NCBI GenBank assembly: GCA_021795795.1
Contig: JAJYPA010000065.1
Coordinates: forward strand, 1 to 25,472
Direction of reading: 5' to 3'
Source of the DNA: Pseudomonadota bacterium
GTDB taxonomy: Bacteria > Pseudomonadota > Gammaproteobacteria > Halothiobacillales > Halothiobacillaceae
Length of the DNA: 25,472 nucleotides
The notes under the pieces are model-generated. The model did no database searches. It was not told the DNA's origin and saw only the letters and a program-made list of their open reading frames with translations. Numbering within the stretch: the first letter of the stretch is position 1; each line of letters begins with the position of its first letter. Both the position numbers and the translations under genes were made by a program. This document shows positions 3,831 through 25,266 of this stretch, piece after piece.

Positions 3831-5509
3831 GCAGTCTCCAGAAGTTCGGTCATCACCGTATCGTTGGCAGTCGTCACCAGGCGCTGGATGGCCGCCTTGT
3901 TGAACTGGAAGGTCAGCAGCGCCGAGGCCTGATAGCGTGTCAGGCTGAAATCCACCCGCAGTGGCGCAGGCAGGTAGCGCAGTTGCCCGGGCGTGGGTGA
4001 CTCCTGCAGCCAGCGACGGGTTTTGTGGGCGGCATCGTCGATTTCCTGCTTATTGAGCCAGTCGTTGGCTTGGGCGAGGCATACTGTGCGTTCACCGACA
4101 CCCAGCAAGTGGGCAGGCAGTTTTTCAGCGCCACCCACCGCATACCAATGTCCGTTCAGGAAGAAGACCCCCGCCCAGGCCTTGAAGCCTGTAGCCAGCA
4201 GGGCGCAGTCGTCGCCGAAGAGATCGCACCAGGCAAAGTTGGAGCGCTTGAGCAAGTCGATTTCGGTCATCACGAAATCGCTGATCTGATGGCGCATCTC
4301 CTCGACCTGCTTGGCAAAGTTGTGGCCACAGAGCGGACACTCGCGACTGGCCATCGGCACTTCTGCATCACACTGCGGGCAGTGTTTGGTCGGTGCCTCG
4401 CCGCCCCCGGCGAAGCCATCCAGATCGACTTCCTGCTCCAGACTGCCATGGCGCAAGGATGCCGTGCCGAAGTCCAGCACCACGCAATCCGTCTTGATGA
4501 CGCCCGGGTGTTCAGCGGGGTCAACCACGCGCAGACCGCGCCCGACCATCTGGATCAGGGTCGATTTGTAGGAACTCGGCCGCAGCAGCACGATGCATGA
4601 GGTCGGGGTGTAGTCGTAGCCCTCCGTCAGCACGGCGACATTTACCAGCACCATCACGTCATCGGTTTCATAGGACGCCAGAGTGGCCTGACGTTCGGCA
4701 GGCGTCATCTCGCCGTGAACGACTGCGGCGCGAACCCCTGCCGCATTGAAGGCATGGCAGACGGCATGGGCGTGATCAACCGTGGCTGCGAACGCAATGG
4801 TCTTGCGCCGAGCAGCGTGTTCCTGCCAGTGCTGCACGACGGCAGCATTGACTGGCGTGGTGTTCATGATCGATGCCACGGCATTCATGTCGTAGTCGTC
4901 GGTCAGTTTTCGAACACCATCGAGCGCGTCACGGGTGCCAACATCGACCACAAAGGTGCGTGGCGACACCAGATGACCGGAACGGATCAGTTCGCCCAGC
5001 CGGATCTGGTCGGCGACATTGGAGAACACCTCCCGAAGGCCTTTGCCGTCACCGCGATTCGGCGTGGCGGTCACGCCATAGATCAGCGCATGCGGGTTCT
5101 TGGCGAGAACGGAATCAATGACCAGCCGATACGTCGGCGCCGCGCAGTGGTGGGCCTCGTCGATCACCAACATGTCCAGAGTTGGCATCTGCTCAAGGTT
5201 GCGAGCCAAGGTTTGCACCATGGCAAAGGTAGCCTGACCCGACCAGGACTTCTGGCGGGCATCGAACACGGAGGTGCTGACTTTCGGATTGACCCGACCA
5301 AACTTGGCGCGGTTTTGCGCGGTCAATTCATCCCGGTGGGCCAGGACGCACACCTTGGCATCTGGATGTTGAAGAAATTCCCCGGCCGTGCCGGACAGGC
5401 AAATGGTCTTGCCTGCACCGGTCGGTGCCACGCCGAGGGTGTTGCCGTGGGCCTTCAAGGCCGTAACGCAGCGGGTGACGAATTCCCGTTGCCGTGGACG
5501 CAGCATCAT
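3827..5509 (-). CDS. Superfamily II DEAH-box helicase with C-terminal zinc ribbon
   Basis: This 560-aa protein has a complete SF2 helicase core: Walker A APTGAGKT (28-35), DEAH box VIDEAHH (115-121), motif III GVTATPNR (145-152), and motif VI QMVGRGLR (320-327). It belongs with the RAD25/XPB/UvrB-like branch of DNA translocases. After the core lies a zinc ribbon, CPQC and CPLC (Cys377, Cys380, Cys391, Cys394), then about 160 residues of unknown fold. It most likely unwinds or remodels DNA in replication or recombination of the element. The start at 5509 (MMLRPRQR) is supported by AAGGAG about 8 nt upstream. The gene overlaps the zinc-ribbon protein downstream by 4 nt and lies 12 nt after the DUF669-like gene. 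Confidence 0.88.
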   Translation of the reverse strand: MMLRPRQREFVTRCVTALKAHGNTLGVAPTGAGKTICLSGTAGEFLQHPDAKVCVLAHRDELTAQNRAKFGRVNPKVSTSVFDARQKSWSGQATFAMVQTLARNLEQMPTLDMLVIDEAHHCAAPTYRLVIDSVLAKNPHALIYGVTATPNRGDGKGLREVFSNVADQIRLGELIRSGHLVSPRTFVVDVGTRDALDGVRKLTDDYDMNAVASIMNTTPVNAAVVQHWQEHAARRKTIAFAATVDHAHAVCHAFNAAGVRAAVVHGEMTPAERQATLASYETDDVMVLVNVAVLTEGYDYTPTSCIVLLRPSSYKSTLIQMVGRGLRVVDPAEHPGVIKTDCVVLDFGTASLRHGSLEQEVDLDGFAGGGEAPTKHCPQCDAEVPMASRECPLCGHNFAKQVEEMRHQISDFVMTEIDLLKRSNFAWCDLFGDDCALLATGFKAWAGVFFLNGHWYAVGGAEKLPAHLLGVGERTVCLAQANDWLNKQEIDDAAHKTRRWLQESPTPGQLRYLPAPLRVDFSLTRYQASALLTFQFNKAAIQRLVTTANDTVMTELLETA

Positions 5510-5521
5510 CGGAGGTTCTCC

Positions 5522-6115
5522 TTATTGTGCCCATGCGGGACGGGTGGGAACCGCCGGCAAAGATGGCGTGGCGTTCTGCGGTGCAGAGTGCACATGGCTG
5601 GGCATGCGCACTGGCTGCCCCATCAGGGCGGCGTATTCCTTGTGATCCGGCTGAATGGCTGCCTTGATGACGTTCTTGTCCTGGCCGTTTTGGTCCTTGT
5701 CCCAGTCGACCTTGCCGAGAAACTCGATGCCATCGAGATCAGCGAATCCACTGATGCGGCGTGCGTTCTGTGCGACAGGACTGCCATCATTGGGGTGAAC
5801 ACCACGCGCCGAGTTGAGGATCGCCTTGACGAAAGTCCGGCCCATGTTGGCCCACTCTGGTCCCTTGGGGCTGTGCAGGCCGATGAGCGACCACATTTTG
5901 CGACGGGCGAATTCTCCGTTTGTCACGATAAACTCGCAGTTCAGGTAAACAGAACCGGTATTGTCGTTACGCGTGGCATAGCCGCCAGTCCAGCCCTGCG
6001 ATGCGTCATCGAAGCCGCCCGGCTTGATGGTCATGCGCACCGGTACCAGTGTGCCCTTGGGGATCGGGTCGAAAGAGGTCTGTTCGGAAGCGGAATTGAA
6101 ATCGAAGTAGGTCAT
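5522..6115 (-). CDS. DUF669-like phage protein, possible ssDNA-binding protein
   Basis: A 197-aa protein with an N-terminal pattern typical of phage DUF669 proteins: an FDF start, a FDPIPKG turn, a lysine/glycine-rich strand region, then LNCEFIVTNGEFARRKMW (roughly 78-95), which looks like the strand-turn-strand core of a beta-rich OB-like fold. The C-terminal 50 residues are proline- and glutamine-rich and end in PAWAQ, a low-complexity tail like those that tether partner proteins in ssDNA-binding proteins. Phages often encode such proteins between a Sak4/RecA-like ATPase and a helicase, exactly the order here. The ATG at 6115 has AGGAG about 9 nt upstream and lies 2 nt after the ATPase stop. 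The family match is from memory and the ssDNA-binding role is inference. Confidence 0.6.
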   Translation of the reverse strand: MTYFDFNSASEQTSFDPIPKGTLVPVRMTIKPGGFDDASQGWTGGYATRNDNTGSVYLNCEFIVTNGEFARRKMWSLIGLHSPKGPEWANMGRTFVKAILNSARGVHPNDGSPVAQNARRISGFADLDGIEFLGKVDWDKDQNGQDKNVIKAAIQPDHKEYAALMGQPVRMPSHVHSAPQNATPSLPAVPTRPAWAQ

Positions 6116-6117
6116 GA

Positions 6118-6993
6118 TCAGGACTCCTGGGTAGGAATGGATTCGGGGGTGGAAACGGGTACTGGGCGTGCGAAATCGAGTCGCTCGGTGGCAGGCTTTG
6201 CAGGGCCGGCGATCTTTTCCATCAGGCGGCCGAGATGGGGCTCCTCGATGAGGTCGAGGCGACCGGAGCGATCTTTGGCGGGGAAGCCCCAGGCGTTCAG
6301 CGTGTGGCAGACGAAGGCGCGATAACTGGTGCCGTCATCGGCCTTCAGTTCGGCCAGGGTGACGACCTCATCCACGATGCCCGGCAACTCAAGACCGGTC
6401 TTGGAACCGTCGATCTGCAACGAAAACACCCGACGGTTGAAGTCGTCCAGAGCCTCGTTCAAAATGCCGACGAACCAGACGTTCTTGCGGCGGGTATGCT
6501 GCAGGTGGGTCAGCCAGCCGATCATTTCCTGGCCCATCAGCCCATACGCACCGCGACTGTCGGGCTTGCCGGTCTTCTCCGAGTAGGCCTGCGGCTGGCC
6601 CTTGCACCATTGCAGGCACAAGCGCCCGGCCACGGTGATCGAGTCGACGAAGACGGTCTCGTACTTATCCAGAACCGACAGGTTGCCAAAGCGCGCGCAG
6701 ACCGCGTCGAAGTGAGCCTGGCTGTAGGACTGGTCCTCGCGCAGTGCCGGGTTAGGGCCACCAATGAACACCGCAAAATCGCGGCATTCCTGCCAAGTGC
6801 GGGGGCGGATCGTGTCGCCCGCCCAGCCCTCGACGGCGAGGTCGCCGGCCTCGAGGTCGAAGAACAGGGTTGCTGTAGCGTTCAAGGTCCAGAGTTGCGA
6901 GGTCTTCCCAAGACCGCTTTTGCCAACGAGAACTCCCTTGACGCCGCGCTTTTCGGCCAGGCGCTGGTCTGCAGTGATGATGGGGAGACTCAT
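6118..6993 (-). CDS. Phage P-loop ATPase (AAA_24/Sak4-like)
   Basis: A 291-aa protein with Walker A GKSGLGKT (24-31) after a beta strand, and a following strand ATLFFDLEAGD (about 40-50) that resembles the second acidic strand of RecA-like phage ATPases. A further hydrophobic strand ending in FVDSI looks like Walker B. Phage proteins of this type (AAA_24; Sak4 is a characterised relative) act with a ssDNA-binding protein in annealing or recombination; the next gene downstream is a candidate for that partner. The start at 6993 is chosen over 7029 because a consensus AAGGAGG (7001-7007) lies 7 nt upstream. It overlaps the upstream gene's stop by 4 nt (ATGA). Specific biochemical activity cannot be read from the sequence. 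Confidence 0.75.
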   Translation of the reverse strand: MSLPIITADQRLAEKRGVKGVLVGKSGLGKTSQLWTLNATATLFFDLEAGDLAVEGWAGDTIRPRTWQECRDFAVFIGGPNPALREDQSYSQAHFDAVCARFGNLSVLDKYETVFVDSITVAGRLCLQWCKGQPQAYSEKTGKPDSRGAYGLMGQEMIGWLTHLQHTRRKNVWFVGILNEALDDFNRRVFSLQIDGSKTGLELPGIVDEVVTLAELKADDGTSYRAFVCHTLNAWGFPAKDRSGRLDLIEEPHLGRLMEKIAGPAKPATERLDFARPVPVSTPESIPTQES

Positions 6994-7268
6994 GGCTGCC
7001 CCTCCTTGGAGAAGGTATCTCCAATGCAATGAGCGCCTAGCGCACCGCGTTTTCTGGCAAGTTCATAAAGTTCGTGCAGGGCATTTATGCGTTGTCTGAC
7101 TGGGCGAATCTCGTTTTCCAGATCAATGACCGCCAAGGCGATCTGGTCTATGGTGGCATCTTCAATGGCTACCTCGGCTCCATTTGCCGGAATCAGCGCT
7201 GGCAGTGATTCGAATTGGTAGGGGTGTTGTTTTTTCAATCGGTCGAGCAGGGTATGGTTTTTGAACAT
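6990..7268 (-). CDS. Small helical protein of unknown function
   Basis: A 92-aa acidic protein that I do not recognise. The centre (about residues 35-75) is rich in Glu, Leu and Arg with heptad-like spacing and probably forms a coiled coil; the N-terminus is basic (KNHTLLDRLKKQ). There are no cysteines in pairs, no membrane segment and no catalytic motif. The ATG at 7268 has AGGAG about 8 nt upstream, and the gene ends in a 4-nt overlap with the ATPase, so it is likely translated with it. Position suggests an accessory of the replication or recombination module. Confidence 0.7.
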   Translation of the reverse strand: MFKNHTLLDRLKKQHPYQFESLPALIPANGAEVAIEDATIDQIALAVIDLENEIRPVRQRINALHELYELARKRGALGAHCIGDTFSKEGQP

Positions 7269-7273
7269 GGCGG

Positions 7274-7744
7274 TTACTCCTGAATGAATGCAAGGCGAAA
7301 TCCGGGTTTGCCGGTCTTGAGGGTGCGAGCAGAGGCGAAGGCGCTTTTCAACGTTTCTGGCCAGGCGCCAAACTTGGCTTCTGAAACGCGATAAGTGATC
7401 TCGACATACTGGGTGGGGTCGTCGCCAGTGGACGCGATGCGACGCACGATTTCTGCAAGTTGCTTCTGTTCCCAGTCGATTTTCTTGGACAAATCGGCGG
7501 TGACGCGAACATGACCGTCATCGAAGTGCACGACGCCGGTGTCCTTGCCAGCAGCAAGCCGTAGTTCCTTTGCCCGCGCGGAATACTTCAGATCCAGGGC
7601 ATGATCCACATGCTCGACAATGGCTTTTGCCGCAGACAGCAGGTCAGCCGCATCGTTTTTAAGATGAAATAGAGATTCGCTGGATTGTTCGGCAAGTTTC
7701 CCAGCGGGTGTGGCCAGCACTTGATCGGGGGGGAGGTGGTTCAT
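7274..7744 (-). CDS. Phage hypothetical protein
   Basis: A 156-aa soluble protein without recognised motifs. The first half is alpha-helical with repeated Ala/Leu; the second half contains a possible beta-rich region around ITYRVSEAKFGAW. Small proteins of this kind are common at the start of prophage replication operons. The ATG at 7744 overlaps the stop of the upstream HTH gene (ATGA), and the next gene starts 5 nt after its stop. It belongs to the same transcription unit. Function unknown. Confidence 0.68.
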   Translation of the reverse strand: MNHLPPDQVLATPAGKLAEQSSESLFHLKNDAADLLSAAKAIVEHVDHALDLKYSARAKELRLAAGKDTGVVHFDDGHVRVTADLSKKIDWEQKQLAEIVRRIASTGDDPTQYVEITYRVSEAKFGAWPETLKSAFASARTLKTGKPGFRLAFIQE

Positions 7745-7953
7745 GCCACACCTCCCACATCGGCGCGCTCGGATGTGCTTTTGCGCAGGCTTTCGGACTC
7801 GTAGGTTTCGACGTCCTCGAGGCGGTACAACACACGTCCTTGCAGTTTTAGAAAGACAGGCCCGATTCCTTCAGAGCGCCAGCGTTCCAGGCTTGCTTCG
7901 CTGATGCCCCAACGGTCGGCCAGTTGGCGTTGGTTAAGGTGTTTGATGCTCAC
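7741..7953 (-). CDS. AlpA/excisionase-like winged-HTH DNA-binding protein
   Basis: A 70-aa protein with the MerR/AlpA-type signature: LNQRQLADRWGISEASLERW forms the helix-turn-helix, followed by GPVFLKLQGRVLYRLEDVETY, the wing and closing helix typical of AlpA and Xis proteins. These bind near attachment sites or early promoters and act as excision or regulatory factors. The start is GTG at 7953, because AAAGGAG (7960-7966) lies 6 nt upstream; the longer reading from 8007 would run through this ribosome binding site. It is the first gene of the long minus-strand operon, consistent with a regulator or recombination directionality factor. Which recombinase it would serve is not shown in this window. 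Confidence 0.8.
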   Translation of the reverse strand: MSIKHLNQRQLADRWGISEASLERWRSEGIGPVFLKLQGRVLYRLEDVETYESESLRKSTSERADVGGVA

Positions 7954-8014
7954 GTTTGTCTCCTTTAGGTGATTGCGAAAACGTGAGGTCAGTTTCCGAC
8001 TCGGCATGTATGGG

Positions 8015-10538: not shown

Positions 10539-10859
10539 GTGTCTTCCCCCCTAGGTGAAAAGATTCGCGTACTGCGCAAGCAAAACAATCTCAGTCTCGA
10601 ACAACTGGCTGAACTGACGGAATCGAGCAAGAGTTATATCTGGGAACTGGAGAACAAGGACGATCCGAAACCGTCGGCTGAGAAGATCAGCAAGATTGCG
10701 GCAGCACTCAAGGTTACTACTGACTTTTTGATCACCGAATCTATGGCCACACCGGATGAGGCGGTGCTTGATGAGGCGTTATTTCGCAAGTTCAGAGCCA
10801 TGTCCGAGGTGGACAAGAAAAAGATTCGCAAAATCATCGACGGATGGGATGACGAATGA
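10539..10859 (+). CDS. XRE-family HTH repressor
   Basis: A 106-aa regulator with an N-terminal cro/C1-type helix-turn-helix: IRVLRKQNNLSLEQLAEL, then SSKSYIWELEN and a closing helix around ISKIAAALKV (residues about 9-65). The acidic C-terminal tail (EVDKKKIRKIIDGWDDE) probably dimerises or contacts the peptidase. It starts with GTG at 10539, with AGGAG (10528-10532) 6 nt upstream; the nearby ATG at 10535 is in another frame and stops at once. The stop overlaps the ImmA start as ATGA. XRE plus ImmA/IrrE pairs control the lysogeny-like state of elements such as ICEBs1, where the peptidase destroys the repressor after DNA damage. Here the repressor probably controls both divergent promoters. 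Confidence 0.88.
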   Translation: MSSPLGEKIRVLRKQNNLSLEQLAELTESSKSYIWELENKDDPKPSAEKISKIAAALKVTTDFLITESMATPDEAVLDEALFRKFRAMSEVDKKKIRKIIDGWDDE

Positions 10860-11752
10860 CGGTTGCAAAAAAACCCATGGCCGAGGCCAATCGAATTTCC
10901 TCGATGCTCAATCTGGTGTTGGGTCCGCAGCGTTTCCCAGTCAAGGTGGATGAGGTGGCCCAGGAATATTCCCGGCAATGTTTCAGGGATTCCCCAATTG
11001 ATAAAATCCAGGGTGAGCATCTCGATGATTTTGACGGGATGCTCAAGGCGAACAAATCCCGGTCAAAGTGGCTTATCGTATACAACGATGGGGTTATGGC
11101 TGCGGGTCGCAAACGATTTACGATTGCCCATGAGTTTGGTCACTACCTATTGCATCGTCATCAACGGGATACTTTTGAATGTGGGGACGGTGACATCGGA
11201 ACGGGAGACAACAACGGACGGGATATTGAGGCCGAAGCGGATCTTTTTGCGTCAACGCTGTTGATGCCCCTGGATGATTTCAGACATCAGATCGAGGGTC
11301 AACAGATCAGTTTCGATCTGTTGGGGCATTGTGCTGACAGATATGGCGTCTCGTTGACTGCTGCGGCCTTACGCTGTCTTGAAGTTCTAACCAAGCGCAC
11401 GGTGTTGGTGGCCAGTCGTGACGATCACATGCTGTGGGCCAAGTCGAACACGGCGGCACTCAAATCTGGTGCATACTTTCCGACGCGTAAGAACACCATC
11501 GAGTTACCCCGCCAGGCGCTGGCACATAGTGACAATGGCAGGGATGCAGGAAATCAACAGACGGGTAGGGCACAGGAGTGGTTCCCACGTGAACCCGCCA
11601 GTATGCAGGTTACCGAAATGACACGAAGGGCGGGCCAGTACGATTACATACTGACGCTACTATTGATGCCCGACGCTGAATGGAGTGACTCCCTGCGTGA
11701 TGATGAAGAAGTCGATGAGGATACCTTTGATCGATTCGCCCGTAATGGATAA
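10856..11752 (+). CDS. ImmA/IrrE-family metallopeptidase
   Basis: A 298-aa protein with the zinc peptidase motif HEFGH (92-96) and the downstream acidic helix GRDIEAEADLFASTLLMP (121-138) that supplies the third metal ligand. Relatives (ImmA of ICEBs1, IrrE/PprI of Deinococcus) cleave XRE-type repressors and so derepress genes under stress. The expected target is the XRE protein encoded immediately upstream, with which it overlaps by 4 nt (ATGA). The C-terminal 120 residues beyond the peptidase core are longer than in minimal ImmA and could be a sensing domain. Catalytic residues are intact, so an active enzyme is expected. Confidence 0.9.
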   Translation: MTVAKKPMAEANRISSMLNLVLGPQRFPVKVDEVAQEYSRQCFRDSPIDKIQGEHLDDFDGMLKANKSRSKWLIVYNDGVMAAGRKRFTIAHEFGHYLLHRHQRDTFECGDGDIGTGDNNGRDIEAEADLFASTLLMPLDDFRHQIEGQQISFDLLGHCADRYGVSLTAAALRCLEVLTKRTVLVASRDDHMLWAKSNTAALKSGAYFPTRKNTIELPRQALAHSDNGRDAGNQQTGRAQEWFPREPASMQVTEMTRRAGQYDYILTLLLMPDAEWSDSLRDDEEVDEDTFDRFARNG

Positions 11753-13358: not shown

Positions 13359-13855
13359 ACCCAAAAAACCCCCCCTACGTCACGCCACCTTCAGTGGTGT
13401 CGCAGATTGCACAATTGCCGAGCCTGGGCATGACGGAGATCCGGGCGTTGTGGAGACACTTGTTTTGTGCAGATACGCCGACGCATAGCCGCCCGTTTCT
13501 GGAGCGACGCATTGCCTACCGGCTGCAGGAAATCGAGTTTCGCAAGGTTGATCATAACCTGATCGATCGGAACAACCGCCGCATCAAAAACATCCTGGAA
13601 ACCGGTCAGAATAAAAAGCGCGATCGCAATTACCGTCCGGTCGCCGGTACGGTGTTGGCGCGGGAATACCAGGGTGTCACTCATAGAGTCGTGGTAACCA
13701 CCGATGGTCAATATGATTTTCAGGGGCGTATGTACCCAAGCCTCTCCATGATTGCAAGGGAGATCACCGGAACACGATGGTCTGGTCCCTTGTTCTTCGG
13801 GCTCAAGCCGTCAGCCACACCCAAGGCCGCCTCCAAAAAAGGAGTTCGTCGATGA
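13355..13855 (+). CDS. DUF2924 family protein
   Basis: A 166-aa basic protein with the DUF2924 hallmarks: an N-terminal helix around LPSLGMTEIRALW, the RPFLERRIAYRLQE segment, and a C-terminal small domain built from LAREYQGVTHRVVV, a GQYDFQGRMYPSLS turn and IAREITGTRWSGPLFFGL, the last resembling a small DNA- or chromatin-binding fold. DUF2924 genes almost always sit directly before a large serine recombinase, as here. The start overlaps the previous gene and its stop overlaps the recombinase start, both as ATGA. An accessory DNA-binding role in recombination is likely but has not, to my knowledge, been shown. Confidence 0.85.
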   Translation: MNPKNPPYVTPPSVVSQIAQLPSLGMTEIRALWRHLFCADTPTHSRPFLERRIAYRLQEIEFRKVDHNLIDRNNRRIKNILETGQNKKRDRNYRPVAGTVLAREYQGVTHRVVVTTDGQYDFQGRMYPSLSMIAREITGTRWSGPLFFGLKPSATPKAASKKGVRR

Positions 13856-15207
13856 GTGAAGTCCTGAAACGCCGTATGCGCTGCGCGGTCTACACGCGCA
13901 AATCCACCGATGAGGGGCTCGACCAGGAATACAACTCCATCGATGCTCAACGCGACGCCGGTCATGCCTATATCACCAGCCAACGTGCCGAGGGCTGGAC
14001 TCCTGTCGCCGATGACTACGACGATCCGGCATTCTCTGGCGGCAATATGGAACGGCCCGCACTCAAGCGACTGATGGCGGACATCGAGGCCGGCAAGATC
14101 GATATCGTCGTCATCTACAAGATCGACCGGCTGACCCGTAGCCTCGCGGACTTTTCCAAGATGGTCGAAGTGTTCGAGCGACAGGGTGTGTCCTTTGTCT
14201 CTGTAACCCAGCAGTTCAACACCACGACGAGCATGGGGCGACTGATGCTGAACATCCTGCTGTCCTTCGCCCAATTCGAGCGTGAGGTCACCGGCGAGCG
14301 CATCCGCGACAAGATTGCCGCCAGCAAGCGCAAGGGTATGTGGATGGGCGGCGTACCACCAATCGGCTACGACGTCAGGAACCGGCGACTGGTGCCCAAC
14401 GAACGCGAGGCCAAGGTCGTCCGTCACATTTTTCAACGCTTCGTCGAACTCGGCTCATCGACCATGCTGGTTAAGGAATTGCGCCTCGATGGGGTGACCT
14501 CAAAGGCGTGGACGACGCAGGACGGCAAGGTGCGCGAGGGAAAACCGATCGACAAGAGTCTGATCTACAAGATGCTCGGCAACCGCACCTACCTCGGCGA
14601 ACTGCGCCACAAGGAGCAGTGGTATCAGGCGGAGCATCCACCCATCGTCGACCGCGCACTGTGGGACAACGTCCACGCCATCCTGGCCACCAATGGGCGG
14701 GTGCGCGGAAATGCGACGCGGGCGACCGTGGCGTATCTGCTCAAGGGCATCGTCTTCGGCAACGACGGGCGAGCGCTGTCGCCCTGGCACACCACGAAAA
14801 AGAACGGACGCCGCTACCGCTACTACGTGCCACAGCGCGACGCCAAGGAGCACGCGGGTGCCTCGGGCCTGCCGCGTCTGCCGGCCGCAGAACTCGAATC
14901 AGCGGTACTGGAGCAACTACGGACGGTCCTGCGCGCCCCGGAACTCTTGCATGAGATGTTGCCACAGGCGATCAAACTCGACCCCACCTTGGACGAGGCC
15001 AAAATCACCGTGGCCATGATCCGGCTCGACGTGATTTGGGACCAACTGTTCCCGGCCGAGCAGACGCGGATCGTGAAATTACTGGTGGAGAAAGTGATTG
15101 TGTCTCCAACCAACATCGAACTGCGACTGCGAACTAATGGTATCGAGCGCCTGGTGCTTGAACTGCAACCGGCGGGCGTTGCCCAGCCCGAGGAGGCATT
15201 GGCATGA
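13852..15207 (+). CDS. Large serine recombinase (resolvase/integrase)
   Basis: A 451-aa site-specific recombinase. The N-terminal catalytic domain begins CAVYTRKSTDEGL, with nucleophile Ser18, and includes the Arg-containing IDRLTRSLADF motif (about 88-98). The Recombinase domain follows (IGYDVRNRRLVPNE, IFQRFVELGS), then a region in which the usual zinc-ribbon cysteines are absent, as in other DUF2924-linked members, and the tyrosine-rich RRYRYYVPQRDA. Such enzymes cut and rejoin DNA through a phosphoserine bond to integrate or excise an element. The start at 13852 has AAAAGGAG upstream and overlaps the DUF2924 stop (ATGA). No truncation or missing catalytic residue is visible, so it is probably active. 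Its attachment sites are not obvious. Confidence 0.92.
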   Translation: MSEVLKRRMRCAVYTRKSTDEGLDQEYNSIDAQRDAGHAYITSQRAEGWTPVADDYDDPAFSGGNMERPALKRLMADIEAGKIDIVVIYKIDRLTRSLADFSKMVEVFERQGVSFVSVTQQFNTTTSMGRLMLNILLSFAQFEREVTGERIRDKIAASKRKGMWMGGVPPIGYDVRNRRLVPNEREAKVVRHIFQRFVELGSSTMLVKELRLDGVTSKAWTTQDGKVREGKPIDKSLIYKMLGNRTYLGELRHKEQWYQAEHPPIVDRALWDNVHAILATNGRVRGNATRATVAYLLKGIVFGNDGRALSPWHTTKKNGRRYRYYVPQRDAKEHAGASGLPRLPAAELESAVLEQLRTVLRAPELLHEMLPQAIKLDPTLDEAKITVAMIRLDVIWDQLFPAEQTRIVKLLVEKVIVSPTNIELRLRTNGIERLVLELQPAGVAQPEEALA

Positions 15208-15653
15208 GCGAGATCCGCATCCAGAAGACGGGCGAACCCGACGTCATCGAGGCCAGCGATGGCCGACTGACGTTGTCGGTGCCGATCCAGATCAAACGCC
15301 GTAGCGGACGCAAACTGGTCACGCTGCCAAATGGCGAGACAGCCAAGGCAAGGCCATGGGACACCGCAACAACGCCGCTGCAACTGGCGTTGGCCAGAGG
15401 TCATCGGTGGTTGGCTATGCTCCAATCTGGCGAAGCCAGGTCGCTCAAAGAGATCGCCACCAGGGAGGGGGTCGACAACAGTTACATTAGCCGGATGGTC
15501 AACCTGACGACCTTGGCGCCGGACATCGTTGCCGCTATCCTCGACGATGCACTGCCGAACCACATCACGCTGTTCGATCTGGCGGTGGATCCGCCAGCGC
15601 TGTGGGAGGAGCAGCATGCCCGGATCGATGAGGGCGCCGAGGGGAAGGGCTAG
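15204..15653 (+). CDS. Recombinase-associated HTH protein
   Basis: A 149-aa protein that follows the recombinase with an ATGA overlap. An N-terminal beta-rich stretch (LTLSVPIQIKRRSGRK) is followed by a helix-turn-helix region: LALARGHRWLAMLQ, SLKEIATREGVDNSYISRMV (about 91-111), then LTTLAPDIVAAILD and a C-terminal ITLFDLAVDPPALWEEQ. This HTH layout resembles ParB/KorB-type DNA-binding segments. Genes of this kind are standard partners of DUF2924-linked recombinases and may act as directionality or regulatory factors. Two broken relatives occur 3 kb downstream (18566-19077), so the element class has inserted or duplicated here more than once. Confidence 0.82.
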   Translation: MSEIRIQKTGEPDVIEASDGRLTLSVPIQIKRRSGRKLVTLPNGETAKARPWDTATTPLQLALARGHRWLAMLQSGEARSLKEIATREGVDNSYISRMVNLTTLAPDIVAAILDDALPNHITLFDLAVDPPALWEEQHARIDEGAEGKG

Positions 15654-18757: not shown

Positions 18758-19077
18758 TCACGCACCCCCAACGGGGAAACAGTCAAACCCAGACCTTGGG
18801 ACACCACGACCACGCCGCCGCAACTGGCGTTGGTCCGAGGTTATCGCTGGCAGGCCATGCTCGAATCTGGAGAAGTAGAATCGCTCAAAGAGATCGCCGC
18901 CAGAGAAGGGATCGACAACAGTTATGTCAGCCGGATGGTCAACCTAACCACGCTGGCGCCTGACATCGTCGCAGCCATCCTGGACCAAACCACATCACGC
19001 TGTTCGATTTGGCGGTTGATCCGCCAGCGCTGTGGGAGCAGCAGCGGGCAAGGTTAACCGCCGGAGTAGGCGAGTAA
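18758..19077 (+). pseudogene. Recombinase-associated HTH protein, broken copy B
   Basis: Closely related to the intact gene at 15204: TPNGETVKPRPWDTTTTPPQ, LALVRGYRWQAMLESGE, SLKEIAAREGIDNSYVSRMV and LTTLAPDIVAAILD align nearly residue for residue. The first 50 or so residues are absent. Near 18985-18990 about 10 bases are missing relative to the intact gene, shifting the frame; the continuation HITLFDLAVDPPALWEQQ resumes in a new frame and ends with TAA at 19075-19077. It marks a second, decayed recombinase-type element in the same place. Confidence 0.85.
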
Positions 19078-19213
19078 CTGGGTTCACCATGGGTTTGAAA
19101 TTAGCGCTATTTTTGGACAATGTCGGTTAAGGCCAACATTGTTGTTGACTTTCGTCAGTTCTAGTCATAATATCTGCAACATCTCAATAGGTAATGGATC
19201 GGGCGAGGCAATC

Positions 19214-19837
19214 ATGAGTGGATGCGGCGACTGGATGGACGATTACGGCTGGAAAATTCTTGGCTGCGCGGCGACGGGTGTCGTTGCCATGGTGGCTGCG
19301 CCGGTTTGGGCACCGGTTGGGGCGATTACAGCGGTAGGGGCCATGATCGGGGCGGGCGTCGGCGGGGTGGCTGGTGTCGCTTGGGGAGTAGTTTCTGACT
19401 CGGGTTCGGCGACGCGAGAGCAGGCGGCTGAACAGCGGGGGCATAATCAGGCGAAGGCGAAACACGAGCAGGAACTGCAGGAAATCAAGGCACGTTACGA
19501 GAAATATATCGCGCATCAACGCCAACAGGCATCGTACTGGGATTTGATACTGGCTTTGTATAGTGTGGGCTTTGCCACCTTACTGCATAGCAGGCGAACC
19601 GATCGCGAATCCCTTGCGGAACTCAAACAGTTCATCGGTGGCCTAGCGTCTGATGCCCTTCCGGAGGCTGTGTGTGTTGAGATGAGTGCGATTGAACAAG
19701 CAGAACCTGATCTCAAAACTGCTATGGTCAGAGCCCAAAAAGTGATGGCAGACCGTATGGAACTGTGTGACGAGGTGGTGGTCCTGCTGGGTGAGCAGGC
19801 AACCCGCGCTGACTGGCAGCAACTGCGATATGCTTGA
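19214..19837 (+). CDS. Glycine-zipper membrane protein with coiled coil (gene 1 of three)
   Basis: A 207-aa protein I do not recognise. Residues 14-60 are a long hydrophobic Gly/Ala/Val stretch (IGAGVGGVAGVAWGVV at its end) with GxxxG-type spacing, a glycine zipper able to cross or oligomerise in the membrane. A charged Gln/Glu/Lys coiled coil follows (about 66-105), then a short hydrophobic helix (DLILALYSVGFATLL, 110-124) and an acidic helical C-terminus. No secretion signal is evident. The start at 19214 (MSGCGDW) has GAGG 5 nt upstream; the longer reading from 19139 lacks a ribosome binding site. Gene 2 begins 10 nt after its stop. With two neighbours that also carry hydrophobic glycine-rich segments, a joint membrane complex is a reasonable guess. 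Confidence 0.75.
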   Translation: MSGCGDWMDDYGWKILGCAATGVVAMVAAPVWAPVGAITAVGAMIGAGVGGVAGVAWGVVSDSGSATREQAAEQRGHNQAKAKHEQELQEIKARYEKYIAHQRQQASYWDLILALYSVGFATLLHSRRTDRESLAELKQFIGGLASDALPEAVCVEMSAIEQAEPDLKTAMVRAQKVMADRMELCDEVVVLLGEQATRADWQQLRYA

Positions 19838-19847
19838 TGGGGGGAAT

Positions 19848-21518
19848 ATGACATCACGTACAGAGCAATTTCGCCGCCGCCAGCAAAAGCGGGCCGCGCA
19901 ACGGCAGGCTACACCGCTAGTGCTGCTGCCAGATGCCGGGACTGCGGCAGCCTTGGCATCAGCCGAGGTCGACAATGCTTTCGTGGACCGCCCGGTTTTT
20001 CTGGATCGATTCGAGATACAGGCGGACATGAGTACGCAGGATCCGGCGTCGCTGCTGGCGGAACTAGCGGCGCACTACCAGAATGACAAGGTTGCCGATG
20101 CCATGCTCAGCACACGCACGCAAATCATGGATCAGATTGCTGGTGCTTTTGGCCTGGGCAAATTGGTAGGGCTGGTCGATCGCAAGGGAGGGTACGTCGA
20201 TACGGTCCACAATGTGCGGCAAGGAGTCTATGCGACTGAACTTGAACGACATCGATACGAATTGCGGGGTGAGTATGATGCCGTTGGTGCCGCTTACCGT
20301 ACTCATCCGAATTACATTGCAAAAGGTCGTGCGGCGAAGCAGAAATTTGAATTCGGCAAGTTGTTTGATGAGTATACCGGGGAGCGGTTTCGGCCGTCTG
20401 ATGTACATCACAAGCAGCGACGGCCCACGATAGATCACATCAAATCCGTAAAGTCGACCCACAACGATGCAGGCCGGGTACTGGCTGAAGTGGATGGGGT
20501 CGAGTTGGCAAATCAGGATTCCAATCTCGCAATCACCAGTAAGACGGTCAACAGCGCAAAACGCAGTGATCAACCGGTTGAGTTCGGTAAGCGACTCGCA
20601 GAGGGTGCAAGCCCCCGTCGCGCGGACATTGAAAGGCTAGAAGCCTCGTCAACGACGCTATCAGAGCGTGAGCGAAAAAACTTGACGAAATTGAAGGTAC
20701 TGGAAGCGGTTGACGTGGAAAGGCTAGAGCGGCAGGAACAAAGAGCAACTCAGGCCATGGATACGCAAATCAATGATGCCTACTACGGGAGCAATAAATT
20801 TGTGAAAGCGGCCGGCAGTGCGGCTGCCACCGAAGGCGCGAAGACCGGTTTGCGCGAACTCGTGGGTGAGGTATTGCTGGAATTTCTCTCAGCTTCTTAC
20901 GATGAAATGATGGATGTTTGGAATAGCGGTAGGCAAGAAGCCAGTATTTGGAGGGAAATGACTGTCAGGCTGAAACGCATTGCATTGCGAACGGCATCTA
21001 AATGGGATCAATACATCGAGCGATTTATCGAGGGAGGCATCGCAGGGTTGCTGTCGAGCCTCGTGACCACACTCGTCAATGCATTCATTACCACTGTTCG
21101 TCGCGTGGCAAGAATGATTCGTGAAGGACTTGTATCTGTCGCCCGGGCGGTTAAGATTGTCCTGTTGCCGCCTGAGGATGCAGATAGGTCGACCGTGCTG
21201 CACGAGGCCACCAAGGTCATTGTAGGCGGTGCCATCATTATCGGAGGAGTTGCACTGGAAGAGCAGATAGACAAGATGTTGCGTTTTCTGCCCGGATTGA
21301 GTTTGATTGCGGACTCGGCAGCGCCCGCGATTGCCGGGGCCTTGACCGCCATGGTGACCGGCCTTGCAATCTATGGGCTTGATCGCCTGGATCTCTTTGG
21401 TGTTAATGAACTTGCACGGCAACGTTCGATCGGCGAAATGCTCGATCAGCGCGAGGAAGCGACCGTGGCGCAGATCGAACACATGCACAGTATGCTGATC
21501 GGAAAGGCAGGGGAGTAA
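19848..21518 (+). CDS. HNH-like nuclease with C-terminal membrane region (gene 2 of three)
   Basis: A 556-aa protein. Residues about 173-240 look like an HNH endonuclease fold: FDEYTGERF, then TIDHIKS (Asp196-His197), His205-Asn206, the DSNLAIT strand with Asn226, and TVNSAKRSD (Asn235, Lys238), the usual spacing of an HNH nuclease that lacks zinc cysteines. A charged coiled-coil stretch (about 255-305) follows. The C-terminal half has three hydrophobic, glycine-rich segments: about 396-415, 453-470 and 484-510. This suggests a nuclease tethered to, or released from, the membrane. The start at 19848 follows a G-rich GATGGGGGG; an in-frame ATG at 19830 is possible but overlaps gene 1. Its stop overlaps gene 3 as TAATG. 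The nuclease call is from motif spacing and is untested. Confidence 0.7.
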   Translation: MTSRTEQFRRRQQKRAAQRQATPLVLLPDAGTAAALASAEVDNAFVDRPVFLDRFEIQADMSTQDPASLLAELAAHYQNDKVADAMLSTRTQIMDQIAGAFGLGKLVGLVDRKGGYVDTVHNVRQGVYATELERHRYELRGEYDAVGAAYRTHPNYIAKGRAAKQKFEFGKLFDEYTGERFRPSDVHHKQRRPTIDHIKSVKSTHNDAGRVLAEVDGVELANQDSNLAITSKTVNSAKRSDQPVEFGKRLAEGASPRRADIERLEASSTTLSERERKNLTKLKVLEAVDVERLERQEQRATQAMDTQINDAYYGSNKFVKAAGSAAATEGAKTGLRELVGEVLLEFLSASYDEMMDVWNSGRQEASIWREMTVRLKRIALRTASKWDQYIERFIEGGIAGLLSSLVTTLVNAFITTVRRVARMIREGLVSVARAVKIVLLPPEDADRSTVLHEATKVIVGGAIIIGGVALEEQIDKMLRFLPGLSLIADSAAPAIAGALTAMVTGLAIYGLDRLDLFGVNELARQRSIGEMLDQREEATVAQIEHMHSMLIGKAGE

Positions 21519-22069
21519 TGGAGAAAGAAGCCTTGGCCGCCGTCTTTCTTCAGAACAATGAGACGCTTCGCAATACCTTGGCACGCAACGTTGCCGCCGG
21601 TCGGAATGCGCTGAATCTTACGCAACAGCAACTGGCTGATCAGGCACAAGTATCTAGAACTACCATCATTCAGATTGAGGCTGCGGAGGGCGACCCTCGT
21701 CTTTCGACGCTAGTCAATATTGCCCTGGTATTTGGATTGCCGACGGCGTTCCTGCTATTTGGTAAGGACGAAATATTGGTCGTCGCGGAAGCACCCAGCA
21801 GTCAACATGCTCAACGGATTCGAGAAACATTGACCGATGAAGATATCGCAAAAATGCGGCGTCTGCTCGGATCCGGCATTAATAAGAGTCAGGCAAAGGC
21901 GGCGGCCATTGGGGCATCCGCTGCGGGACTTTCCGGTGTGTCTGCCGCTTCTCTGGCAGGGGCAGCTATTGGTAGCCGAATTATGCCCGGTCTAGGCACG
22001 GCAATTGGCGGTGCAATCGGAGCAATTATTGCGGTAAGCAAACAGTTAAAAGATGAATCTGGTTCCTGA
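21518..22069 (+). CDS. XRE regulator with C-terminal glycine zipper (gene 3 of three)
   Basis: A 183-aa protein with an N-terminal cro/C1-type HTH (residues about 22-81: ALNLTQQQLADQAQVSRTTI, then a recognition and closing helix LVNIALVFGLPTAFLL). A hinge follows, then a Gly/Ala-rich hydrophobic segment (128-172) containing AAAIGASAAGLSG and GTAIGGAIGAIIAV, a classic glycine zipper like those in membrane-inserting or pore-forming peptides. A DNA-binding domain fused to such a segment is unusual. It could regulate the operon from the membrane, or act as the antitoxin or sensor of the two upstream proteins. The start has GGGGAG upstream and overlaps gene 2 (TAATG), so it is certainly in the same unit. 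Confidence 0.85.
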   Translation: MEKEALAAVFLQNNETLRNTLARNVAAGRNALNLTQQQLADQAQVSRTTIIQIEAAEGDPRLSTLVNIALVFGLPTAFLLFGKDEILVVAEAPSSQHAQRIRETLTDEDIAKMRRLLGSGINKSQAKAAAIGASAAGLSGVSAASLAGAAIGSRIMPGLGTAIGGAIGAIIAVSKQLKDESGS

Positions 22070-22108
22070 GTGTGATCACCGGATTTGATGGCCTGATTTT
22101 CAGGTTGG

Positions 22109-22273
22109 ATGATGGGTTGGTGGCTTGATCATGGCGAGCGACGACCAGATTCGAGCCCTGTTCCAACTTTCAACGAGTTGGATCGCGAATGGGGTTGGGA
22201 TCGTCGGAATGAAAACGTGCCACCCTCGGTGTTGCGGCAGATGCCTGAAGTGCAGACCGACCCTGTCCGATGA
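22109..22273 (+). CDS. Possible 54-aa small protein
   Basis: An ATG-started frame (second in-frame ATG at 22112) encoding a tryptophan- and acid-rich peptide: GWWLDHGERRPDSSPVPTF, then NELDREWGWDRRNENVPPSV and a TGA. Composition is protein-like rather than random, but there is no strong ribosome binding site (only AGG in TCAGG), and no family is recognised. It could be a remnant of a longer gene or an unused frame between the three-gene unit and the IS66 scrap. Confidence 0.25.
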   Translation: MMGWWLDHGERRPDSSPVPTFNELDREWGWDRRNENVPPSVLRQMPEVQTDPVR

Positions 22274-22369
22274 CGGGATTTTCGTTATCCGCTGATAGAG
22301 GTCATGGGTGGGTTACTGCGTAACAAGGTGTCCGGGTGCCAATGGCCAACAGTTTTGACCTGGTTTCTG

Positions 22370-22509
22370 GCCGCTCATTTTGCCCCAGATCAGAAGCGGC
22401 CTTGCGTGTATTTCTGAACGATCCGGAAGTACCCCCTGGATACCAATCATCTGGAACGTGCCCTGCGGGTGATTCCCATGGGAAAAAAGAATTGGAATTT
22501 CTGCTGGAC
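22370..22509 (+). pseudogene. IS66-family transposase fragment (frameshifted)
   Basis: Two frames together give the IS66 TnpC C-terminal signature: FLNDPEVP in one frame, then LDTNHLERALRVIPMGKKNW and NFCWT in the next. The join lies in a five-C run (22432-22436), one C longer than a continuous frame would need. The fragment ends at about 22509, where the usual continuation after the tryptophan is lost and the end of the minus-strand gene begins. It is a dead scrap whose far end coincides with the 3' side of the 901-aa gene. Confidence 0.85.
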
Positions 22510-22516
22510 CCCGACC

Positions 22517-25222
22517 TCAGATCCCCCGCCTCCGAGAATACTCTCGAATTCGCAGATAACGCGCATCTTGCGCAAACTGTGGCGCGGCTTGCGCGATCTC
22601 GTCCAAGCATTGGCCCAACTCCCGGGGTGCCCACTGCTGGTCAGCAATCACGGCATTCAGCAGCAGTAATGCCTCGGCAGGGAACCGTCTGCACAAACCC
22701 GATTCGTGCAGCAGGTGTACGACGTAGTCCGGGTGTTCAATCGGTAGCAGCCAGTCCTGCACCGCAGACAAGGCCGCCGGGAATTCGCCTCGGGCGGCAA
22801 TCACCAGACGAGTTAGGGACTCGGCTATTCGCGGTGTAGCCAAATAGCGGGACTTTGGCCAGATCTGTCGCCAGAACGGCTGGGCACGGTTTTTCCAGAA
22901 GTCCTCACGCTGATCGGCAGCGCCTTCAAGGGCCTGGGGGAGCGCCTGCGCGGACTCCTCCAGGCCTTCTTGTGGAAGCGCACCAATCGCCGATCGGAAC
23001 TCATCTTCGGTGTATCCCTCGGTCGGACCCAATGCTGCGTAGGTCAGGAAGGCCGCGAACTGCTGGCGGTGCTTGCCAAGATCGGCATAGTGGTTTGCAC
23101 TATCCAGGAACTGCGACTTGAAGGCTGACAACAACGGCTGGTACAAACGCGGCGACCAGAGGAAGCCTTCCCACACGGCTTTTGCTTCGGCGGGATTACT
23201 CCAGTTGAACAACGGCAAAAGGTGCTGTTCGGTCCAAGGGCGATCCACACGGAAAAATGCGATCAGCCGCGAACCCAGCAATACCCGACCGTGGCGGAAT
23301 CGGTCCACCTGCACGTCGCATAGTGTGGTGAACATGGGCTTGATGTCAGTTGGAAGCAGATCGTTGTCGTTCGGGTTCTGTTTGAACCACAGATTGATCA
23401 GTGCCTGCGTGACATGCGCGACGGGGTGGTTAATCGCAGATCCGACGGGGTCATAGGTTTCGACGCCATTACGGATGATGCGGAAAACCGGGCCAGTTTT
23501 AAGCGGTAGTGCCAGCACTCGGCGGCACAACTCCATCAGGATGCCCTCGTGGCGGTTGATGGACTTGGATGCAGCTTCCATCCACCACGTAACACCGTGG
23601 GCAATCTCCTGAAGTACAGTATCGGGCATGGCCCGCACCAGCGGTGCTGCGTATCGCCAGGAGCGCAACACTGTGCCTTCTTCGGCCCAGGCCTGTAGAG
23701 CCCCGCGCCATCGGTCAGCGGGCCACACGCCATCCTGTGCCAAATCACATAACGCGAACAGACTGTGAAAGAAGCGCGTGCGGCAAACGTCACGCCACGT
23801 ATCTTCGTAGAAAGGTCGCCGTTCGGGCGTCGGCTTTGTGAGCCATTTCACCAACTCCTGTCGCTTGCGGGGGGCAATGTCGACGTCTCGGCTATCCTCG
23901 TAATCCGGATCGCCAGTGCCACTCATCCAGTGCGAGAACTCGTCACGCTCGTTGGTCGCCAACTGCCATTGCGGGTGGGCAGTGGAAATTTCCGCCAAGC
24001 GCGCTGCCGCGGGCGCCTCCAGCGCGCAGCCCGAAGTGTTCAGCTTGGCCAGATGCAGCCAGACGGAACGAGCCACCAAGTCTTGCCACCGATCTGCTTC
24101 CAGGTCGTTCCGATACATCTCGCGCGGGGGGCCAGCTAAGATGGCTGCCTCTAGGCGTTCTTGTGTGGCTCCTGCCAAATGTCGCCCCTGCAGAACGAGT
24201 AGCCTGAACACTTCCCGCCCCATATCTGTTGACCACAGCCACCAAGCGCCATCGGCCAACAGCCAACCCACCCACTGCTCGGGCGTGATGCAACCATCCT
24301 GACTGGCGGCAAACAGGGCCAGGCGTTTGAAGGTGGGGTACGGCAATTCGAACCAGCTCTGCGCGATTCGTGTCGCGCGCGCACTGTCGTTCGTGCGAAC
24401 CGCCAACCACGCATCGCGCAGCAATTCGATCAGGCTCACCCAGTCACGGAACCACCGGTTCTGCCAATGTGGCGTAATGGACGGAAGATCCCAGTGTGAG
24501 CGGTCGCTGTGGACATCGGCCTCGCCCAACTCGCGTAACATGTCTAGTGCATCACGCAATAGTTGCTGAAAATCCTCCAGCAGGACCGGCAGGGCCGATG
24601 TCCAGTGCTCATCAGCCAAGTCGCGCAGAGCGGAATGCACCTGATCAGCGGTCAGCACGAGTTCCCAGTCCACCAATTGTTCGATTCGCGTGGGCTCGTC
24701 AGTGCTGTTCGAGTCGTCGCCGCTCCAGCGAAACGGCTTTTTCAAGACTACCTTGGGTTCGAGTAACTCGCGCAACTCCAGACGTAGCGTGGTGGTCAGG
24801 CCTTCCCGCATAAGATGGTCTTTCCAGCGATACAAATCGGGGGCGTGCCTTGGGGACTTCACCCGGCCACTAAGCAGTAGGCGCCACAAGGTGCGCATCA
24901 GGGGGCCAGGAATGGCCTTGGGTGCGTGCAAGCGGATTTCATTCAGCTCGGAGGTCTTGCCACCACGTTCCAGTGAAGCAAAGCGATCCAACTCGTGCTC
25001 AATCAGCCACTGCCAACGGTCGTACAACTGTCCACCACGTTCCGCAATCCAGATGACGAGTCTCGGGTCATCCAGGTGGCGCACCAGCCAACGGGCCAGA
25101 TGGAACATTACGTCATCCCATTGGCTGCCGGTGGTGCCACCGGAGGCAAGCAGCATCGGCGGTGCATGGTCATAGGGCGCAGGTGTTAGGACCCTGATTA
25201 TTCCACCGGTCAAATCCCACAT
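22517..25222 (-). CDS. Large protein with DUF4020-like C-terminus, probably lacking its N-terminal domain
   Basis: A 901-aa, mostly helical protein rich in Trp, Arg and Leu. Its C-terminal 180 residues (FWRQIWPKSRYLATPRIAES, LTRLVIAARGEFPAALSAVQ, HPDYVVHLLHESGLCRRFP and a final REYSRRRG) resemble, from memory, DUF4020, usually the C-terminal domain of SIR2-containing proteins of about 1,200 or more residues linked to anti-phage islands. No SIR2 or other enzymatic domain is present in the translated part. The first confident start is ATG at 25222 (a TTG at 25237 is in frame); beyond it lies sequence with IS-like repeats and a transposase tail, without a ribosome binding site at the ATG. The likely history is loss of the 5' end by insertion. 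The remaining helical part may be unexpressed or non-functional. Confidence 0.62.
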   Translation of the reverse strand: MWDLTGGIIRVLTPAPYDHAPPMLLASGGTTGSQWDDVMFHLARWLVRHLDDPRLVIWIAERGGQLYDRWQWLIEHELDRFASLERGGKTSELNEIRLHAPKAIPGPLMRTLWRLLLSGRVKSPRHAPDLYRWKDHLMREGLTTTLRLELRELLEPKVVLKKPFRWSGDDSNSTDEPTRIEQLVDWELVLTADQVHSALRDLADEHWTSALPVLLEDFQQLLRDALDMLRELGEADVHSDRSHWDLPSITPHWQNRWFRDWVSLIELLRDAWLAVRTNDSARATRIAQSWFELPYPTFKRLALFAASQDGCITPEQWVGWLLADGAWWLWSTDMGREVFRLLVLQGRHLAGATQERLEAAILAGPPREMYRNDLEADRWQDLVARSVWLHLAKLNTSGCALEAPAAARLAEISTAHPQWQLATNERDEFSHWMSGTGDPDYEDSRDVDIAPRKRQELVKWLTKPTPERRPFYEDTWRDVCRTRFFHSLFALCDLAQDGVWPADRWRGALQAWAEEGTVLRSWRYAAPLVRAMPDTVLQEIAHGVTWWMEAASKSINRHEGILMELCRRVLALPLKTGPVFRIIRNGVETYDPVGSAINHPVAHVTQALINLWFKQNPNDNDLLPTDIKPMFTTLCDVQVDRFRHGRVLLGSRLIAFFRVDRPWTEQHLLPLFNWSNPAEAKAVWEGFLWSPRLYQPLLSAFKSQFLDSANHYADLGKHRQQFAAFLTYAALGPTEGYTEDEFRSAIGALPQEGLEESAQALPQALEGAADQREDFWKNRAQPFWRQIWPKSRYLATPRIAESLTRLVIAARGEFPAALSAVQDWLLPIEHPDYVVHLLHESGLCRRFPAEALLLLNAVIADQQWAPRELGQCLDEIAQAAPQFAQDARYLRIREYSRRRGI

Positions 25223-25266
25223 TAATCCGCACGGCAATGAGCCTGATTTCCCGGAATGATTCCCCA

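Follow-up and report, generated by a model that had tools for sequence, protein, structure and literature searches.

We analysed a three-gene operon on the plus strand, at positions 19214-22069, of a 25,472-nucleotide (nt) stretch of DNA from a Pseudomonadota bacterium of the Halothiobacillaceae; the whole stretch is referred to as the window. Open reading frame (ORF) calling yielded three intact frames there, with a 10-nt gap between genes 1 and 2 (19838-19847) and a TAATG junction between genes 2 and 3 (21516-21520), in which stop and start overlap by 1 nt. This is the layout given in a preliminary description of the same DNA. The features of the operon, with protein lengths in amino acids (aa), are as follows.

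19145..19173, plus strand: promoter-like site, TTGACT-17-TAATAT, 40 nt 5' of gene 1.
19214..19837, plus strand: gene 1, 207 aa; N-terminal Gly/Ala membrane segment at about residues 13-61, long helix at 67-125, TerB-like helical tail.
19848..21518, plus strand: gene 2, 556 aa; predicted HNH nuclease with a C-terminal membrane-like domain, PDC-M40B family.
20178..20219, plus strand: gene 2 residues 111-124; conserved D..GG.V.T.HN.R motif, 5' of the HNH, with no assigned role.
20355..20561, plus strand: gene 2 residues 170-238; HNH core with YTG, D196-H197, H205/D207, N226, N235 and K238.
20775..21467, plus strand: gene 2 residues 310-540; conserved membrane-like helical domain.
21518..22069, plus strand: gene 3, 183 aa; XRE helix-turn-helix (HTH) regulator with a C-terminal glycine-rich hydrophobic segment, its start overlapping the gene 2 stop; not a conserved partner.

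All three genes have homologues in other DNA and are therefore real genes rather than chance ORFs. Protein database searches returned 25 further proteins for gene 2, 17 for gene 3 and four for gene 1, one of them a 100% copy; gene 1 was also matched at 12 of the loci described below. The G+C content of the window is 57%, and codon positions differ in G+C in each of the three genes. The longest frame was taken as the ORF; starts and some antisense ORFs are unreliable in GC-rich loci. Two promoter-like sites were observed in the window against 2.2 expected by chance, and the site 5' of gene 1 is therefore weak.

Judged from its sequence and predicted structure, gene 2 most likely encodes a diverged HNH (beta-beta-alpha metal) nuclease with a membrane-embedded C-terminal region. 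The residues H197, D207, N226 and N235 are invariant across all 105 aligned rows, and the protein shows the residue pattern of beta-beta-alpha metal nucleases: a His after the first strand, an Asn before the second and an Asn in the helix. The preliminary description had correctly singled out this region and His197. Of the checks that it proposed, structure prediction gave a confident AlphaFold beta-beta-alpha core whose strands and helix fit the placement of H197, N226 and N235, whereas the profile search did not bring gene 2 to any curated HNH cut-off. The best HNH-type model was GmrSD_C (E = 0.016), found in 3 of the 23 members of alignment A1, which holds 23 of the 26 gene 2 family proteins (P0004, P0021 and P0023 were left out). 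Kinship with GmrSD_C was set aside, as profile comparison gave nothing despite this weak Pfam match. Against the sequences of solved structures, the gene 2 profile matched a single chain, at E = 0.12 and outside the HNH. Structural re-alignment placed Vvn and 13 Cas9 entries on the HNH core, with unrelated membrane proteins scoring higher. Gene 2 shares its D-H...N...N..K order with Cas9-type HNH domains and Vvn, and may resemble them in predicted fold; the four rows labelled Cas9 in a further comparison are Cas9-sized by frame length, not by name. Gene 2 differs in having no guide-RNA apparatus, in being joined to a membrane-like domain and in carrying an insertion with H205 and D207 between the HNH halves. 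From these features we infer nuclease activity.

Conservation extends to both sides of the core. In the upstream motif, D111 and G114 are each kept in 102 of 105 rows, H121 in 97 and R124 in 103; in the membrane-like domain, Y313, F318, G340, G400, N411 and R425 are identical in all 105. Hydropathy (19-residue windows at or above 1.5) resolved three separate membrane-like stretches, at residues 396-417, 450-468 and 490-511, in agreement with the three hydrophobic C-terminal segments proposed earlier. The PADLOC model PDC-M40B matched residues 88-534 (E = 2.6e-48) and all 23 members of A1. Many plasmid records annotate members of this family as ATP--cob(I)alamin adenosyltransferase (including L163, 6956-8527, and other enterobacterial plasmids), and lactate permease and DNA repair protein are also used; these names look like misannotations.

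Gene 1 contains a strong Gly/Ala hydrophobic stretch at residues 13-61 by hydropathy, so that the membrane-capable segments that the preliminary description saw in genes 1 and 3 are both present (for gene 3, see below). In the AlphaFold model, residues 67-207 form one long helix and a helical bundle, with 111-207 mostly above 90 in predicted local distance difference test (pLDDT) score, and the glycine-rich residues 1-65 are left without a model. By sequence the tail is TerB-like. The gene-1 family profile matched a cluster of small TerB genes (E = 4.5e-6, probability 87%), and of five gene-1 relatives scanned with Pfam TerB, one was above the cut-off (L002; 29.8 against 24.4 bits), two were below it and two gave no match; gene 1 alone does not reach this cut-off. 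The PADLOC match of gene 1 is a weak one to the C-terminal part of LeoBC (E = 1.2e-7), possibly through the glycine-rich stretch; the operon differs from LeoABC in having no GTPase. A search of the Protein Data Bank with Foldseek gave no useful match by which to name the fold. Alignment A2 of this family comprised 8 of the 12 gene-1 loci and four proteins, and the profile contained nine of the 12 (L001, L003 and L004 were not in it).

One scan of GTDB genome contigs yielded 163 relatives of gene 2. The best 80 were analysed as loci, several of which end at contig edges; one (L015), without an intact core, was excluded from the neighbour counts and the tree, leaving 79. A quick tree of gene 2 without bootstrap separated a 30-row side that includes the window (17 loci) from a 75-row side (62 loci). 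A gene-1-type gene adjoins the gene 2 relative at 12 of the 17 window-clade loci versus 0 of the 62 sister-clade loci. The 12 (L001-L005, L008-L012, L014 and L051) were the same by phmmer with gene 1 and by the family profile; L014 and L051 have identical gene 2 proteins. As to the other five, L007 has a JukA-like gene, L013 and L016 have partners of the sister-clade type, L006 has an unrelated-looking 214-aa gene and L032 ends at a contig edge.

The sister clade mostly has partners other than the gene-1 type. Clustering of neighbouring ORFs, in which each family took its name from one to three representatives, gave a coiled-coil/glycine-zipper gene of about 360 aa resembling PDC-M09A at 60 of the 79 loci, a WYL-type regulator at 37 and a small TerB gene at 10. 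A gene of about 90 aa with a CxxCxxCC cysteine cluster was found at 64 of the 79, downstream in 62 of the 64 with a median overlap of 4 nt. PDC-M40A was considered as a component near the core and set aside: it occurs in 4 of the 17 genomes reached through 18 loci, not necessarily close to the core. Relatives of gene 2 also occur in 70 plasmid records. The family is thus real, mobile and widespread.

These data bear on whether the operon is simply an ordinary PDC-M40 system with lineage-specific neighbours, a catalogue entry and nothing further. Gene 2 is a PDC-M40B relative over most of its length, the model covers the whole of A1, and a genome of the same genus (G005) has PDC-M40B together with PDC-M40C. 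The partner in the window is instead the zipper-TerB protein of gene 1: neither PDC-M40C nor PDC-M40A matched genes 1-3 at E <= 1 or any of five other window proteins, eight being scanned in all. We consider this explanation unlikely, and file the operon as a variant within the PDC-M40B family. The preliminary description knew of no system with this architecture. That view needs amending in that gene 2 belongs to a catalogued candidate and a gene-1-like tail is fused to JukA elsewhere. No tested function was found for the family. No paper naming PDC-M40 was found, nor was any described anti-phage operon combining HNH, TerB, WYL and CxxCxxCC or a glycine zipper, in a literature search whose terms did not extend to JukA with HNH.

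Gene 3 behaves differently from genes 1 and 2. By hydropathy it has a hydrophobic stretch at residues 155-174; a second, at 61-89, falls where the HTH match ends and is not a believable membrane segment. The glycine-rich hydrophobic tail is common to 16 aligned database relatives (alignment A3, made without the weakest match, P0049). A gene-3-type protein was found beside gene 2 relatives at 0 of the 80 loci (phmmer, E <= 0.1; some loci end at contig edges), a search that would not detect other kinds of XRE gene. It returned three weak HTH matches, about 2 kb or more from the gene 2 relatives and on the opposite strand. Matches of any strength occurred in 40 of 369 genomes of the class. The one strong match (G104; E = 2e-21, residues 10-172) lies 3' of a 2122-aa protein matching PDC-S37/Hhe and 5' of a 205-aa gene and three dynamin-like genes, two of which have clear Leo matches. 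At E <= 1e-12, the gene 3 profile matched 3 of 398 genomes of the phylum, with matches limited to the HTH. Viral contigs gave 16 partial matches and plasmids none. The preliminary description had joined the three proteins in one membrane-linked complex. With gene-3-type neighbours absent from all 80 loci, a WYL-type regulator at 37 instead and the only strong match beside another, dynamin-like operon, a complex with the XRE protein as a fixed member was rejected. The survey of co-occurrence that it had called for therefore divides the operon: genes 1 and 2 are linked at 12 of 17 window-clade loci, and gene 3 is not part of that linkage. Gene 3 looks like a local add-on, a regulator swapped in, and from the two places where it is found we infer an apparent role as an interchangeable regulator of defence operons that act at the membrane.

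A different role for gene 3 would follow if the operon were an abortive-infection or toxin-antitoxin unit, in which gene 2 is a host-killing toxin (nuclease or pore) that the XRE protein restrains. Antitoxins are commonly of XRE type, gene 3 overlaps the gene 2 stop, and gene 3 resembles the HipB-type antitoxin model TIGR03070, although below its cut-off (42.6 against 71.65 bits). A type II toxin-antitoxin system would be expected to pair the XRE protein obligately with the toxin; no gene-3-type neighbour was nevertheless seen at any of the 80 loci (phmmer, E <= 0.1), and on plasmid pQBR103 a 189-aa and a 558-aa gene occur with no annotated XRE gene near, in a gene table that may be incomplete. 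We regard such a unit as improbable.

The operon beside this strong gene 3 match (L212, 8851-15611) has its XRE-zipper regulator ahead of the 205-aa gene and the three dynamin-like genes, with the 2122-aa PDC-S37/Hhe-like protein next to them. It is a candidate dynamin defence operon; the position of a gene-3-type regulator before the dynamin-like genes is a further likeness to LeoABC.

The flanks of the gene 2 family are richer in defence models than control stretches. At E <= 1e-10, 124 PADLOC models were matched by 119 flank ORFs versus 25 by 116 control ORFs, a rough contrast that counts matched models, which are redundant, rather than proteins. The flank set was 119 of 421 ORFs from 61 of 76 loci, and the controls were 116 of 305 ORFs from 34 stretches in 11 of the same genomes, one early stretch being only 936 bases long. 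The more general part of the preliminary description, namely an HNH protein of membrane-like character, partnered by a glycine-zipper protein and set in defence-like surroundings, is supported.

Taking these results together, we favour, with a probability of about 0.58, a two-protein, membrane-localised anti-phage module formed by genes 1 and 2, with gene 3 as a lineage-specific repressor or tuner. An anti-phage function is suggested by the genomic context. Gene 2 would be the effector, a diverged HNH nuclease that acts on DNA and is anchored at the inner membrane through its conserved C-terminal helical domain, and gene 1 its sensor or coupler, inserting its glycine-rich segment into the membrane and docking on gene 2 through its TerB-like cytosolic tail. 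On phage infection, the two proteins would come together at the membrane, either at the point of DNA entry or on a vesicle derived from the phage, and the DNA would be cut there by the nuclease. Gene 3 would repress or tune the operon in the lineage of the window. Docking, membrane insertion, site of action and the role of gene 3 are proposals.

The partner genes connect this family with Juk. On plasmids of Citrobacter freundii and Enterobacter asburiae, an identical 404-aa protein (same accession), annotated 'ubiquinol-cytochrome C chaperone', is encoded 5' of the HNH gene with a 9-nt gap and behind a WYL gene. In the Citrobacter copy, residues 10-238 matched PADLOC JukA (E = 2.4e-58). The profile of the gene-1 family matched residues 302-380 with 95% probability (E = 2.5e-8), and none of five control families, small TerB genes included, exceeded 0.7%. 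On a Raoultella planticola plasmid the genes follow this order too, and the 404-aa gene is annotated alike. The L003 locus of Burkholderia arboris encodes, directly downstream of the HNH gene, a protein that combines a JukA part (E = 3e-20, phmmer from the Citrobacter protein) with the tail (E = 5e-30, gene-1 profile). Two further JukA-like genes showed no tail: the one in Mailhella (L007) adjoins the HNH gene with a gap of 30 nt, and the one in Gilliamella (L044) is 387 nt downstream of it. JukA is thus near the HNH family at 3 of the 79 loci and in two plasmid records by test, and in a third plasmid by annotation. If the favoured reading is right, the coupling tail of the partner may be the constant part and the sensor head the part that is swapped. 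Separately, a 776-aa protein encoded at L004 (4630-6960) ends in the gene-1 domain (567-775) and precedes a gene 2 relative; another sensor head may be formed by the first 560 residues of this protein.

Juk is described in PMC13282480 as a sensor, JukA, with diverse effectors, acting on the early-infection vesicle of nucleus-forming phages. The operon could accordingly be of Juk type and directed against jumbo phages, with a membrane-bound nuclease taking the place of the pore former JukB at the early phage vesicle. The tail-bearing JukA beside HNH proteins in C. freundii, E. asburiae and B. arboris speaks for this, as does the account of Dionysus, which is said to encode a TerB homologue (PMC12926258) and to act at the same vesicle stage of jumbo-phage infection (PMC13282480, PMC12931631). 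In the window, however, JukA is absent (no PADLOC match to genes 1-3 at E <= 1), gene 1 retains the tail only, and the effector is of HNH-membrane type, unlike JukB, for which a pore-forming role is described (PMC13282480, PMC12931631). JukA is moreover common, being put at over 20% of Gram-negatives in PMC13282480, although this leaves the adjacency and fusion unexplained. We hold a Juk-type system to be possible but on the unlikely side, and the absence of JukA is the reason for not filing the operon as Juk. The two-protein module would most likely work as Juk does, with a membrane-level sensor and an effector. The effector list of the Juk paper may already include this HNH effector, and Dionysus may be the present system under another name. 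Shango also has a TerB-like protein, and differs in its ATPase and helicase (as described in PMC10250203), neither of which is in the operon.

The preliminary description had proposed that its idea would fall if homologues of the three genes occurred independently or within a known system. About half of this was found: gene 3 occurs independently, PDC-M40B is catalogued, and the tail is fused to JukA.

Relatives of gene 2 also occur in seven jumbo-phage records of Aeromonas, representing four phages. In the LAh10 relative, D196, H197, D207, N226 and N235 are kept and H205 is not; a PDC-M09A-like gene stands 5' of this relative. In LAh10, D9 and D3, a 336-aa gene and the HNH-membrane gene stand in tandem (L162, 4934-7530; L218, 3934-6530; L219, 2934-5530), followed in LAh10 and D3 by a PagP-annotated gene; among these phages, the model scan covered the LAh10 proteins. 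Such copies, the plasmid records and a same-genus copy lying between HTH repeats beside a recombinase would suit a module with which mobile elements or phages compete among themselves, as opposed to one that defends the host. Against this, bacterial copies are many (the 163 of the genome scan), their flanks are richer in defence models than the controls, and only one relative came out of a pattern-limited scan of 2.9 million viral contigs. We judge a competition module to have little likelihood.

More speculatively, and with considerable doubt, JukA/TerB-type early-infection sensors may have a second effector class: a membrane-embedded, Cas9-like HNH nuclease brought by the sensor to the giant-phage entry site or vesicle membrane, where it would cut DNA before the phage nucleus forms. 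The window would hold a stripped form in which a short glycine-zipper anchor stands in for the JukA part on a coupling tail of the same kind, and the effector would have been captured by some jumbo phages. If so, a likely job could be named for a catalogued, unexplained family found on genome contigs, plasmids and jumbo phages alike; nuclease effectors would be added to Juk/TerB-type membrane-level immunity; and how a nuclease reaches phage DNA hidden in a vesicle would become a testable question.

The interior of the operon had no DNA match in eight of eight same-genus genomes, and its flanks matched in seven of the eight. No match to plasmids was found at the DNA level. The recombinase and insertion sequence (IS) surroundings noted in the preliminary description were confirmed, with a serine recombinase at 13777-15207 and repeated or IS-like remnants; the IS family names given to these remnants are our presumption. 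In G005, the HTH sequence that is repeated in the window occurs on either side of a 524-aa gene 2 relative and its PDC-M40C partner; the recombinase next to them looks by eye the same as the window's.

DNA from about 22065 belongs to an element that is multi-copy in the genus. This element (22065-22510), which we take to resemble an IS66-type remnant, begins at the gene 3 stop codon and may cover the original end of gene 3. Behind the serine recombinase stands a SopB-like HTH gene, repeated at 80-93% identity on both sides of the cargo, at 15327-15615 and 18767-19045 in the window; the same flanking occurs in the same-genus L213 (502-736 and 3761-3995). The repeats look like a recombinase-linked cassette in which insertion left partial HTH copies.

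Other parts of the window carry further candidate defence and mobile-element genes. A PADLOC match to the defence sirtuin Dsr1 at 22517-25237 (minus strand) covers the C-terminal 70% of the protein (model 388-1275), with 83% DNA identity to Shewanella plasmids. The match begins at ORF residue 17, and the in-frame upstream sequence is by eye unlike a continuation, so the N-terminal part seems to be missing, shifted or outside the window. At 10539-11752 (plus strand), an XRE-like ORF is followed by a CapP-type protease (10856-11752; PADLOC capP, E = 6e-69); the two are perhaps a CapH/CapP-like regulatory pair, the model scan having covered the CapP half. By eye, 299-8007 (minus strand) is a phage-like or integrative and conjugative element-like block with a long primase-type ORF, a helicase-type ORF and nucleotide-binding ORFs.

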